Source of the DNA: Acidobacteriota bacterium | Lineage (GTDB): Bacteria; Acidobacteriota; Terriglobia; Bryobacterales; UBA6623 | Length of the DNA stretch: 53,000 bases | Assembly (NCBI GenBank): GCA_027592785.1 | Contig: JAQCLD010000018.1 | Coordinates: 1-53,000 of the forward strand | Reading direction: 5' to 3' | Part shown: positions 20,336 through 32,573 of the stretch, one piece after another | Position numbering within the stretch: position 1 is the first letter of the stretch | Layout: each line of letters opens with the position of its first letter | Notes under the pieces: generated by a model | The model's input: the letters and a program-made list of their open reading frames with translations, nothing else | Database searches by the model: none | What the model was told of the DNA's origin: nothing | Translations under genes and position numbers: made by a program

Positions 20336-23005
20336 TTGAATTCGAAAATCGACATCCCCTTCCAGCGCTTCGTCCTCCAAAACGGCCTGACCCTCATTAC
20401 CCACGAGGACCGCAAGGCGCCAATCGTCTCGGTCAATGTCTGGTATCACGTCGGCTCAAAGAACGAACGCCCCGGCAAGACTGGCTTCGCCCACCTGTTT
20501 GAGCACCTCATGTTCAACGGCTCCGAGAGCCATCCCGGCGACTACATCAAAGCCATGGAGGCGGTCGGCGCGACCAGCCTCAACGGGACAACCAACAACG
20601 ACCGCACCAACTACTTTCAGAACGTCCCGACTCCCACTCTCGATTTCGCACTCTGGATGGAATCCGACCGCATGGGCCACCTGCTCGGGGCTATCGATCA
20701 GGCCAAGTTGGACGAGCAGCGCGGCGTCGTCAAGAACGAAAAGAAGCAGGGGCAAAATCAGCCTTACGCCGTCGCCCACGACCTGCTGACCCAACGGACC
20801 TATCCCTACGGCCACCCCTACTCTTGGACGGTCATCGGCGAGATGGAAGACATCGACGCAGCCTCGCTCGACGATGTTCGCCACTGGTTCGAGCGATTCT
20901 ATGGCGCCGCCAATGCCACTCTCGTCGTTTCCGGCGATATAGACGCCGCAACGGCCTTGGACAAAGTCCAACAGGCCTTCGGCGATATCGATCCGGGGCC
21001 GATCGTCCCTCGACTACGTTCCAACGTCGCCCGTCGATTCGGCGAAGACCGCGAGACGGTCGAAGATCGCGTCCCCCAAGCCCGCGTATATAAGGTCTGG
21101 AATGTCCCCGGCTGGGGCACTCGCGAAGCCGTCGCCTTCGATCTCATCACAGACGTGCTGGCTGACGGAAAGAACTCGCGACTATATAAGCGTCTTGTCT
21201 ACGAAGAGCAAATCGCCACCAGCGCCAGTGCGTCCATCGGCGCCCGCGAAATCGGCGGCCAACTTTCGATGGTGGCTTCCGTGCAGCCCGGCGGCGATGT
21301 GGCTGCGGTCGAGGCGGCCATCGACATCGAACTCGCCCGATTTCTGCGCGAAGGCCCGACCGCGGACGAACTAGAACGCATCCGCATTCAGCATCGCGCC
21401 GAGCTGATCCGAGGCGTCGAACGAATCGGCGGTTTTGGCGGCAAGGCCGACATCCTCGCCAAGGGCCAAGTCTTTGCCGACAACCCTGAGCACTATCTGC
21501 AGATGAATCGCTGGACTGAAGAACTCACTGCCGAGGATTTGATCGAAACCGCTCGCGAATGGCTAACCGACGGCTCCTACGTCCTCGGAGTTCAGCCGGC
21601 CCCGGAGCGCAGTTCCAGCTCCAGCAAAGTCGACCGCTCCAAGGCGCCGATCAGCACCGGCAAGACGAAGTTGTCACTTCCGCACTTCGAAAAGGCGACT
21701 CTCTCCAATGGACTGCAAGTCACCCTTGCTCAGCGCCATGAGATCCCGACCGTCGAGTTGTCGCTGATCGTCGACGCAGGGTTCGCAGCGGACCAGTTCA
21801 CCCGCTCGGGCGTAGCCACCATGACCATGGCTATGCTCGATGAGGGCACCGCCAGCCGGACTTCGCTCGAAATCGAAGACCAACTCGACCGCCTCGGCGC
21901 CGGCCTGGGCGGTCGATCCGGACTCGATACCTGCTACGTGGGGCTCTCCGCGCTAACCGAGCAGTTCGGTCCCTCACTCGAACTGTTCGCCGACGTGATC
22001 TGCAATCCGTCCTTCCCAGAAGGCGATTTCCAGCGCCTGAAGCGGCAACGCCTAGCGCGCATCGAGCAGGAGAAGAGCGCTCCCTCCAGCACCGCTTTCC
22101 GGCTGCTCCCACAGCTGCTCTTCGGTTCGGCGCACGCCTACGGTACGCCGCTGACCGGCAGCGGCTATCCAGACACCGTCACCGCCATGACCCGCGAAGA
22201 CTTGGTGACCTTCCACCGAACCTGGCTGCAGCCGAGCCGATCCTCGCTCGCGGTGGTCGGCGATGTGACCCTGGCCGAGCTGTTGCCCCTTCTAGAACAG
22301 CATCTTGGACAGTGGCGAGACTCCGCCCCGCCGCCACTAAAGAACACGGCCGAGGTCCCGCTCCCCGACCAGCGCGCTATCTACCTGGTCGACAAGCCCG
22401 GCGCGCACCAGAGCGTCGTCATCGGCGGCCTGCCCGCTCTCCCCACCAATAACCCGCACGAGCCGGCGATCGAGATGATGAACGCCATCCTGGGCGGCGA
22501 TTTCGCGTCGCGCATCAATCAGAACATCCGCGAGGAAAAACACTGGTCCTACGGCGCTCGCACCATGTTCCTCGACGCCAAGGGACCCCGTCCCTTCCTG
22601 CTCTATGCGCCTGTCCAGGCGGATAAAACCAAGGAGACCCTCCAGGAATTGGACTTGGAGCTCCGTGGCGCCCTCGGACTTAAACACTTCACCGACGACG
22701 AACTGAACCAAGCCAAGAACAACGCGACGCTCAGCCTGCCGGGAAGCTTCGAAACCAAGCTAGCCGTCATCGGCGCCATGCAAGACATCTTGATCTACGG
22801 CCTCCCGGAGGACCACTTCAACACCTATTCCGATCGAATCAACGCCGTCACCATCGCCGAGGCCGAAGCTGCAGCCAAGCGCATCCTCGATCCCGACCGC
22901 GTGATCTGGATCGTCGTCGGCGATGCCGCCACGACCGAAGGACCGCTATCCGAACTCGGATGGGGCCCCATCCGGCACATGGATGCGGAAGGCAATCTGC
23001 TCTAG
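20336..23005 (+). CDS. M16 (pitrilysin/insulinase-type) zinc peptidase, two fused halves
   Basis: 889 residues. The first half carries the inverted zinc motif HLFEH (HxxEH) in GFAHLFEHLMFNGSE at about residues 54-58, with the distal Glu in DEQRGVVKNEKKQ. The second half (from about 445, ATLSNGLQVTLAQR) repeats the M16 fold without HxxEH, as in clamshell peptidases with one active and one inactive half. No signal peptide is clear, so it may be cytoplasmic or exported by another route. The start is TTG 20336 with AGGA 7 nt upstream; no ATG is near. It probably degrades peptides. Confidence 0.93.
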   Translation: MNSKIDIPFQRFVLQNGLTLITHEDRKAPIVSVNVWYHVGSKNERPGKTGFAHLFEHLMFNGSESHPGDYIKAMEAVGATSLNGTTNNDRTNYFQNVPTPTLDFALWMESDRMGHLLGAIDQAKLDEQRGVVKNEKKQGQNQPYAVAHDLLTQRTYPYGHPYSWTVIGEMEDIDAASLDDVRHWFERFYGAANATLVVSGDIDAATALDKVQQAFGDIDPGPIVPRLRSNVARRFGEDRETVEDRVPQARVYKVWNVPGWGTREAVAFDLITDVLADGKNSRLYKRLVYEEQIATSASASIGAREIGGQLSMVASVQPGGDVAAVEAAIDIELARFLREGPTADELERIRIQHRAELIRGVERIGGFGGKADILAKGQVFADNPEHYLQMNRWTEELTAEDLIETAREWLTDGSYVLGVQPAPERSSSSSKVDRSKAPISTGKTKLSLPHFEKATLSNGLQVTLAQRHEIPTVELSLIVDAGFAADQFTRSGVATMTMAMLDEGTASRTSLEIEDQLDRLGAGLGGRSGLDTCYVGLSALTEQFGPSLELFADVICNPSFPEGDFQRLKRQRLARIEQEKSAPSSTAFRLLPQLLFGSAHAYGTPLTGSGYPDTVTAMTREDLVTFHRTWLQPSRSSLAVVGDVTLAELLPLLEQHLGQWRDSAPPPLKNTAEVPLPDQRAIYLVDKPGAHQSVVIGGLPALPTNNPHEPAIEMMNAILGGDFASRINQNIREEKHWSYGARTMFLDAKGPRPFLLYAPVQADKTKETLQELDLELRGALGLKHFTDDELNQAKNNATLSLPGSFETKLAVIGAMQDILIYGLPEDHFNTYSDRINAVTIAEAEAAAKRILDPDRVIWIVVGDAATTEGPLSELGWGPIRHMDAEGNLL

Positions 23006-23153: not shown

Positions 23154-24845
23154 TTGTCCCCTATCCGCTCAAATTGGTTGCCGGCCGCCTTATTGGCGGC
23201 GGCCTTGGCCGTACTTCCCCAGTCGGCCTTCGCGCAAGGCGTCCAGGCTGAACGCGGCTCGGTCACCCTGATCCCTTTCGTGCTGAAAAAGGGCTACTCC
23301 GACGCCACCGCTCCAGGAGCCTTCTCCTTCGCCTGTTCGGACCGGGCCAGATACCTCGAACTCTACTTTCTCGAGCGAGGCTTGCCTTTCGAGCCGGATC
23401 TGGTCCATCCCGACGGCAAGTTCGCCGCCTGCCACATCTACTACGAACCAACACTACGAGATTTCCGCGCTTCGGTCGAAGACCTGCCGATTAAGCGGCT
23501 CTACATCGCTGTCGATCCACTCAACTTTTTCGCCGACGCCGAGTTTGGCGGCGGCAGTCTCAGCATTGCCAAGACCGTCTTGGCAAAACTTCCACGCCCC
23601 GTCGATGTCCGGCTGAGCGTCTCCGGCGGCTATCCCGAGAAGCTTTGGCAGCCGACGGCGGCCTATCACTTCGGAGCCATGCCTCACCATCTCGACTTCT
23701 TCGACACCGGCCTCGAACAAGTGCACCCTTGGACCCAGGACCATCTCGAATCCGGAACAGTAAAAGGTGAAAGGCGCGTTCTGATACCCCGTCATCTATA
23801 CGAGGGACGGCCCGAGGATGGGGCCTAGTTTGAGACCTTGCTGCAGCGCCTTGAGGAGCCCCACGTCGTCCGCTCCAAGCTTTCTTGGGAGGGAGGCGAT
23901 CTGCAGTTCGTCGCCAATCCGCAGGACCCCAGTCGAATCATCCTGGCCCACGGCACGACGGCGCGCGCCTACTGGGGACCCGAGCTGACCGCCAAGGAAT
24001 ACAGCTACATCCTGCGCGTCGAATTCGGCGCCGACGACGTTCTCGATCTGAGCCAACTGGGCCCCCATGCCGACTATCTCGTAGCCTTCTTGCCTGCCGA
24101 CCGCACCGCCTTGGTCTCCCAGCTCGTTTCCGGCAATCCCGACGTCGCCCGAGCGGCGGCATTCGAGCTCGTCGGCTCGTTCCCTGCCGGAGCCCCTCTA
24201 GAGTTCCGTGCAGTGGCGACAGCAGCAGCAGCCTGGGATGGTTCCGACAAAAAGGCCGGGCGCGCGCTCGTCGACTCCATCTCCGCCGCGCGCCAAAAAC
24301 TCGAGGGCCTCGCCGACGCAAACGACCCCCAGATCACGCATCGCCTGAACGAATACATCACCAAGTATTGCCCCAAGAATCCGGAAATCTGTTTCAACGC
24401 CGTGGGAACGGTGCAGATGCTCGATCAGGACCGCGAACTGCTGCGCGCCTCGATCTCCCAAGAAGTCGCGGCCGCACTCCACCAACTATTGCGACCCCTT
24501 CTTCTCGACCTAGTTGAGGCTCAAGTCTCGCCGCCGCAGGGGCGCGAGAGCCGTCTCGACGACGTCGTGACAAAGCTGGAAGACTGGGGCTTTCGTGTAG
24601 TCCGCACGCCGCATCTGGCCACCAAGACTTTCCATACTTTGTGGCCCGGCGCCAGCTACGCCAACATGTTGGTCTTCGACCGCCACCTTTTCGTACCAAC
24701 GCTCGGCCTAGGCCAAGTCGAGGAGAATTTCATCGCCAAGCTGCGCGACGATCTCCACGGCGCCTACGACATCGTTCCCGTCGACGCACGCACGTCGCTC
24801 ATCAATAACGGCGGCGTCCATTGCGTCTTCGGCATCATTCGTTGA
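23154..24845 (+). pseudogene. Secreted pentein-fold (deiminase/amidinotransferase-like) enzyme interrupted by in-frame TAG at 23826-23828
   Basis: One frame of 564 codons from TTG 23154, broken only by TAG at codon 225. A signal peptide (residues 5-28, ending QSAFAQ) precedes motifs in the order of guanidine-modifying pentein enzymes: WTQDH (193-197), WEGGD (245-249), GPHADY with H305/D307, and near the C-terminus NNGGVHC with C557. The catalytic set Asp/Glu-His-Cys is thus complete when the two parts are joined, with the stop falling between the first two motifs. A helical insert of about 150 residues lies between H305 and C557. The closest families are agmatine deiminase and bacterial peptidylarginine deiminase. 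The second part alone (TTG 23838) would lack WTQDH and be inactive. Confidence 0.75.
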
Positions 24846-31964: not shown

Positions 31965-32573
31965 TTGTCGTTATCCAAAACTAGCGCCTGCACCAAAGTC
32001 TGTCTGGTGGCCTCGCAAGCTCTGTTGCGGGAAGGCCTGAAACTGCTGATTGAAGCCGAACGCGACCTCTGCGTGGCCCCTAGCGAAGAGGCGGACATCG
32101 TCATCTTGGACCTGGCCGACGAGGACGCGCTGACGACCTTGCAGCAGGGCTCGGGCCGCGGCAAGAGCCGCTTCATCGTGCTCACCGAAAGTTCCGAACT
32201 GGCCGAGCTGGATTGCGCTCTGCGGGCTGGAGCGCGAGGCATTGTCGTCAAGAGCGCCCACCCGGCCAGCCTATTGCAGGCAATTCGCAGCGTGAGCCGG
32301 GGCCTGAAGTGGCTCGATCCTGAGATACAACAAAAGCTCTCCAGTCCCGATTCCATTCTGCCGACTCCCCAGGAACGCTGGAGAAGTCTCTCCAAGCGCG
32401 AACGCCAGATTGCCGAACTCGTGCTGCAAAGCCTGCGCTACAAGGACGTCGCGGATTCGCTGCACATCAGCGAGCATACGGTTCGCAACCACCTGCGGAG
32501 CGTCTTCACCAAGCTGCGCATCACCAGCCGAGTGGAACTGGCGCCCTATGCCGGCGAAGCCGTCTCGACTTAG
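31965..32573 (+). CDS. LuxR/NarL-type response regulator with degenerate receiver
   Basis: 202 residues. The N-terminal receiver-like domain (about 10-125) keeps the phosphoacceptor strand DIVILDLADED and the switch strands RFIVLTESS and ARGIVVKSAHP, but the usual acidic pair after beta-1 is replaced (LVASQALLREG instead of LVDDH.LVREG), so Mg2+-dependent phosphorylation may be lost. The C-terminal LuxR HTH is complete (LSKRERQIAELVLQSLRYKDVADSLHISEHTVRNHLRSVFTKLRI). No histidine kinase is next to it. The start TTG 31965 has no good ribosome site, but no alternative preserves the receiver. Confidence 0.88.
   Translation: MSLSKTSACTKVCLVASQALLREGLKLLIEAERDLCVAPSEEADIVILDLADEDALTTLQQGSGRGKSRFIVLTESSELAELDCALRAGARGIVVKSAHPASLLQAIRSVSRGLKWLDPEIQQKLSSPDSILPTPQERWRSLSKRERQIAELVLQSLRYKDVADSLHISEHTVRNHLRSVFTKLRITSRVELAPYAGEAVST

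Follow-up and report, generated by a model that had tools for sequence, protein, structure and literature searches.

The closest described relatives of the enzyme considered here are the agmatine deiminases and Porphyromonas-type peptidylarginine deiminases of PF04371, proteins of 330-390 aa with a pentein fold, followed by the vertebrate-type enzymes PAD1-4. We analysed a window of 53,000 nucleotides, the entire contig C22 of the metagenome-assembled genome of an uncultured bacterium (4.55 Mb, 203 contigs, 93.7% complete, 3.1% contaminated), in which a gene of this kind is interrupted by an in-frame amber codon. For comparison, 11 homologues were gathered from relatives and GTDB genomes. They are ~32-42% identical to the window gene; all those with names come from Acidobacteriota, and the nearest share the family or order of the window genome.

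The homologues and the window copy resemble the penteins in carrying the WxQD, WEGGD, HxD and Cys motifs of that family in pentein order. The W-QD, H-D and H-C residues are invariant in the 11 homologues and kept in the window copy, and the invariant Asp, His-x-Asp and Cys are the putative catalytic residues, equated by motif order. The GGxHC-bearing C-terminal module of the window copy passes the curated cut-off of PF04371 (PAD_porph; 27.6 bits against 25), the match being confined to that module. All 11 homologues match the same profile at E<=0.01 (40.3 bits for homologue L004) and none matches any other Pfam domain, while NCBIfam agmatine deiminase models, including AguA TIGR03380, match 4 of the 11 weakly (best E 1.3e-6) and leave the first member unmatched. 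An AlphaFold2 model of L004, which comes from isolate RI_231 (pLDDT 85.7, pTM 0.86), was compared with the PDB using Foldseek. The best match was 1xkn (E 1.6e-12), and the ranking placed agmatine deiminases first, P. gingivalis PPAD next and vertebrate PADs last (E 1e-12 to 1e-6), with TM scores normalised by target of 0.59-0.70 against the agmatine deiminases. The fold modelled for the homologue is thus like that of agmatine deiminases and PPAD (E 1e-12 to 1e-8); PAD1-4 also match (E 1e-8 to 1e-6) and are of similar total length, but more weakly than the agmatine deiminases do. Unlike the PF04371 enzymes, the family is ~560 aa long, has a signal-peptide-like N-terminus and contains a mostly helical region (~residues 296-423 in the L004 model) inserted between its HxD module and its Cys module. 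Identity to solved structures, taken overall, is just 10-14%. On the strength of the model, we assign the family to the guanidino-modifying enzymes of the pentein superfamily; the window copy is assigned by way of its homologues. The initial annotation had described a secreted deiminase-like enzyme and suggested assays with agmatine or peptidyl-arginine: the pentein fold and the exported-looking N-terminus agree with the former, whereas neither substrate can be assigned. A literature search on this enzyme family in Acidobacteria found nothing, and the family, comprising rare, exported-looking Acidobacteriota enzymes, appears uncharacterised.

The interrupted frame runs from 23154 to 24845 on the + strand, from TTG to TGA, and is open apart from the TAG at 23826-23828 (codon 225). 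Its 5’ part (23154-23828) comprises 224 codons, is homologous to the N-terminal part of the 11 intact homologues and has no Pfam match of its own. It begins with what looks, by inspection, like a signal peptide (LLAAALAVLPQSAFA|Q), contains WTQDH (23730-23744, codons 193-197) and ends at the TAG. The only start candidates at the beginning of the frame are TTG codons, and no clear ribosome-binding site lies ahead of it. The 3’ part of the same gene (23829-24845, 338 codons and then TGA) holds WEGGD (23886-23900, codons 245-249), the HxD motif as HAD (24066-24074, codons 305-307), the helical insertion and GGVHC (codons 553-557), the catalytic-type Cys of which lies at 24822-24824; PF04371 matches residues 248-333 of this part (E 2.1e-6). 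The codon-usage signal keeps to a single frame before the TAG as well as beyond it, with no other frame competing, and restarts immediately 3’ of the stop, the next ATG or GTG being 128 codons further on. These two features make the deiminase gene stand out from the other same-frame ORF pairs, of which 706 kb of the genome contain 56 in all. Re-reading the frame and its motifs confirmed the coordinates, the codon number and the motif placement of the initial annotation, WTQDH preceding the stop and WEGGD, HAD and GGVHC following it.

All 11 homologues are single uninterrupted ORFs that span both halves, and a profile built from them recovers the window gene as a single match of 575 bits with one TAG inside. 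The initial annotation had called for an alignment of orthologues at codon 225. In this alignment, the column of the stop is occupied by K/E/S/E/A/L/L/V/K/S/P, i.e. variously by K, E, S, A, L, V or P, and is therefore not the position of a conserved special residue. Together, the intact homologues and the variable column indicate one gene with a single nonsense lesion rather than two natural proteins; orthologues naturally encoding two proteins, which would have spoken against the annotation, are absent among the 11. The window copy differs at 1 of 60 homologue-invariant columns (K to E at 199), against 0-7 for intact homologues under the same test, and the tip branch of the window gene equals the median (0.94 in both cases). 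Since conserved columns are kept and the branch is ordinary, neither half of the gene bears traces of relaxed selection. An old pseudogene, in which conserved columns would be lost and the branch long, was rejected on these grounds, in keeping with the remark in the initial annotation that survival of all four motifs is unexpected for an old pseudogene. It follows that the lesion, if real, is recent.

Full-length copies of the family were found in about 4 of 396 sampled genomes of the phylum. Within the same family of bacteria they occur in 2 of 18 genomes, the window genome and that of a relative, G002. The deiminase-like gene is dispensable and, the enzyme family being so sparse in relatives, its loss would not surprise. 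No relative of the gene was found in viral contigs. Directly upstream, at 20336-23005 of the window, lies an M16 peptidase gene, which matches the M16 and the M16_C domain twice each and itself ends in TAG. Neighbouring window genes, this peptidase included, are not conserved beside the homologues. A second candidate for a split gene, at 32573 of the window, proved to encode a complete LuxR-type regulator with TAG as its terminator and was rejected.

We conclude that the gene very probably carries an ordinary nonsense lesion in one secreted-type pentein gene, brought about either by a recent mutation or by an error in the metagenome consensus. The ancestral state was a single ORF for a secreted-type, agmatine-deiminase-like, guanidino-modifying pentein enzyme. 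The nonsense codon may then have arisen very recently in this strain, giving a young pseudogene, or the stop may be a consensus error. If it is real, translation would end at codon 224 and would leave a fragment that includes only the first of the catalytic motifs, behind the signal peptide. Such a fragment would lack the His/Asp and Cys modules and thus would presumably be inactive. A real mutation as the source of the stop has, in our judgement, about an even chance; this is an inferred choice between mutation and assembly error.

The other possibility, that the organism has no stop at this position and its living cells produce the enzyme in full, comes close behind and we regard it as a serious candidate, if a little short of even. 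It is consistent with the lack of any other decay in the deiminase gene and with the state of the assembly as a whole. We surveyed 706 kb, supplemented by family searches, with a coding-potential heuristic that is biased to same-frame stops and was partly checked against homologues, so that the lesions found are examples and not a rate. A protein in C18 is cut by TAA to 245 aa, the frames of relatives being mostly 338-395 aa; a gene in C162 (L107:14599-16672, - strand), 63-67% identical to its G002 homologue, carries a TAA in addition to a frameshift; and a PD40 repeat protein in C101 has a TAA between repeats. TGA interruptions occur at C59 and C160, two TAG lie in one damaged gene in C128, and frameshifts were found at C139 and C9. 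MacB-type permease genes appear broken at 3 places here, none of which is evident in G002. All three kinds of stop and frameshifts are thus present in this assembly of 203 contigs, with two lesions in one conserved gene, as an error-prone consensus would produce. It is a known problem of long-read assemblies that errors in the consensus fragment genes (PMC12007338), although the present assembly may not be long-read. Against this, real young pseudogenes would equally account for the number of candidate nonsense lesions, approximately 4 in 706 kb.

Apart from the gene in C162, those of this genome that are interrupted by TAA, TGA, TAG or a frameshift lie at L093:8452-9498 (+), L113:2439-4373 (+), L130, L131, L132, L129 and L133. 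They suggest either that young pseudogenes are numerous or that the consensus is error-prone. Related propeller proteins of the PD40/WD40-like kind are also numerous in the genome; some have a C-terminal domain in common (44 matches in total), and several are damaged.

We also considered whether the TAG is read through, either by a suppressor tRNA that was not assembled or because its context is leaky, which would let the cell export the full enzyme at a low, regulated level. Both halves are intact, the 3’ half retains its coding signal and every catalytic motif, and surviving catalytic motifs would be expected of a suppressed functional gene as well. Every test argues against such a mechanism, which we consider highly improbable. 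RF1 is present in the genome (521.7 bits, above cut-off), whereas PylS gave sub-threshold matches only (27.6 bits against a cut-off of 178). No tRNA with the anticodon CUA was found among 48 tRNA matches in this 93.7% complete assembly, outside which a suppressor tRNA could lie; in two tRNAs truncated at contig ends, inspection of the loops gave the anticodons CGT and CGC. A degenerate tRNA-like sequence of 34 bits lies at L059:1576-1646 (+) (G000:C64:5225-5295), just before a good tRNA-Asp. It was rejected as a suppressor, the Rfam-aligned anticodon loop being CUACGAA and the anticodon ACG and not CUA, and it is probably a decayed tRNA.

In a genome of 61% GC, TGA would usually be expected as the dominant stop. 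TAG is nevertheless the commonest, closing 223 of the 485 called ORFs in 706 kb including the window, against 131 each for TGA and TAA. Reassignment of TAG was therefore rejected, the codon being neither absent nor rare, and if suppression were general, close to half of all proteins would be extended. We likewise rejected programmed read-through driven by an RNA structure beyond the stop: the sequence 3’ of the stop shows no unusual folding (z-score +0.73) and the stop region matches no Rfam element. Variation of the residue at this position also speaks against read-through. The strongest argument against recoding is that the lesions are not specific to amber codons, since TAA, TGA and frameshifts interrupt other genes of the assembly. 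Amber suppression was thus rejected on the tests of RF1, PylS, tRNAs and stop usage. The initial annotation had left the stop as recent, an error or suppressed; the first two survive, supported by whole homologues and the lack of decay, and the third falls.

Equally improbable is that the gene now encodes two cooperating proteins which together form an active enzyme, the second starting at a TTG 9 nt 3’ of the stop (23838, the start of a mechanically called + strand ORF of 335 aa, 23838-24845) or made by re-initiation: no homologue among the 11 is split, which led us to reject two natural proteins and to judge a separate protein unlikely; the TTG encodes a leucine common to most homologues at that column and so need not be a start; a ribosome-binding site before it is not evident on inspection; and only the first part has a signal peptide, which would place the halves in different compartments.

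An ordinary nonsense lesion, whether mutational or artefactual, means that this stop merely adds to the broken genes of a draft metagenome-assembled genome. It is also a warning that a single in-frame stop in an assembly of this kind should not be taken for recoding. The enzyme family may be worth an assay, by way of an intact homologue. We found nothing that sets the deiminase gene apart from known nonsense-interrupted genes, be they young pseudogenes or assembly artefacts. It is like them in having a single in-frame stop with the rest of the gene intact, in having intact homologues, and in lying in a genome that contains similar lesions.
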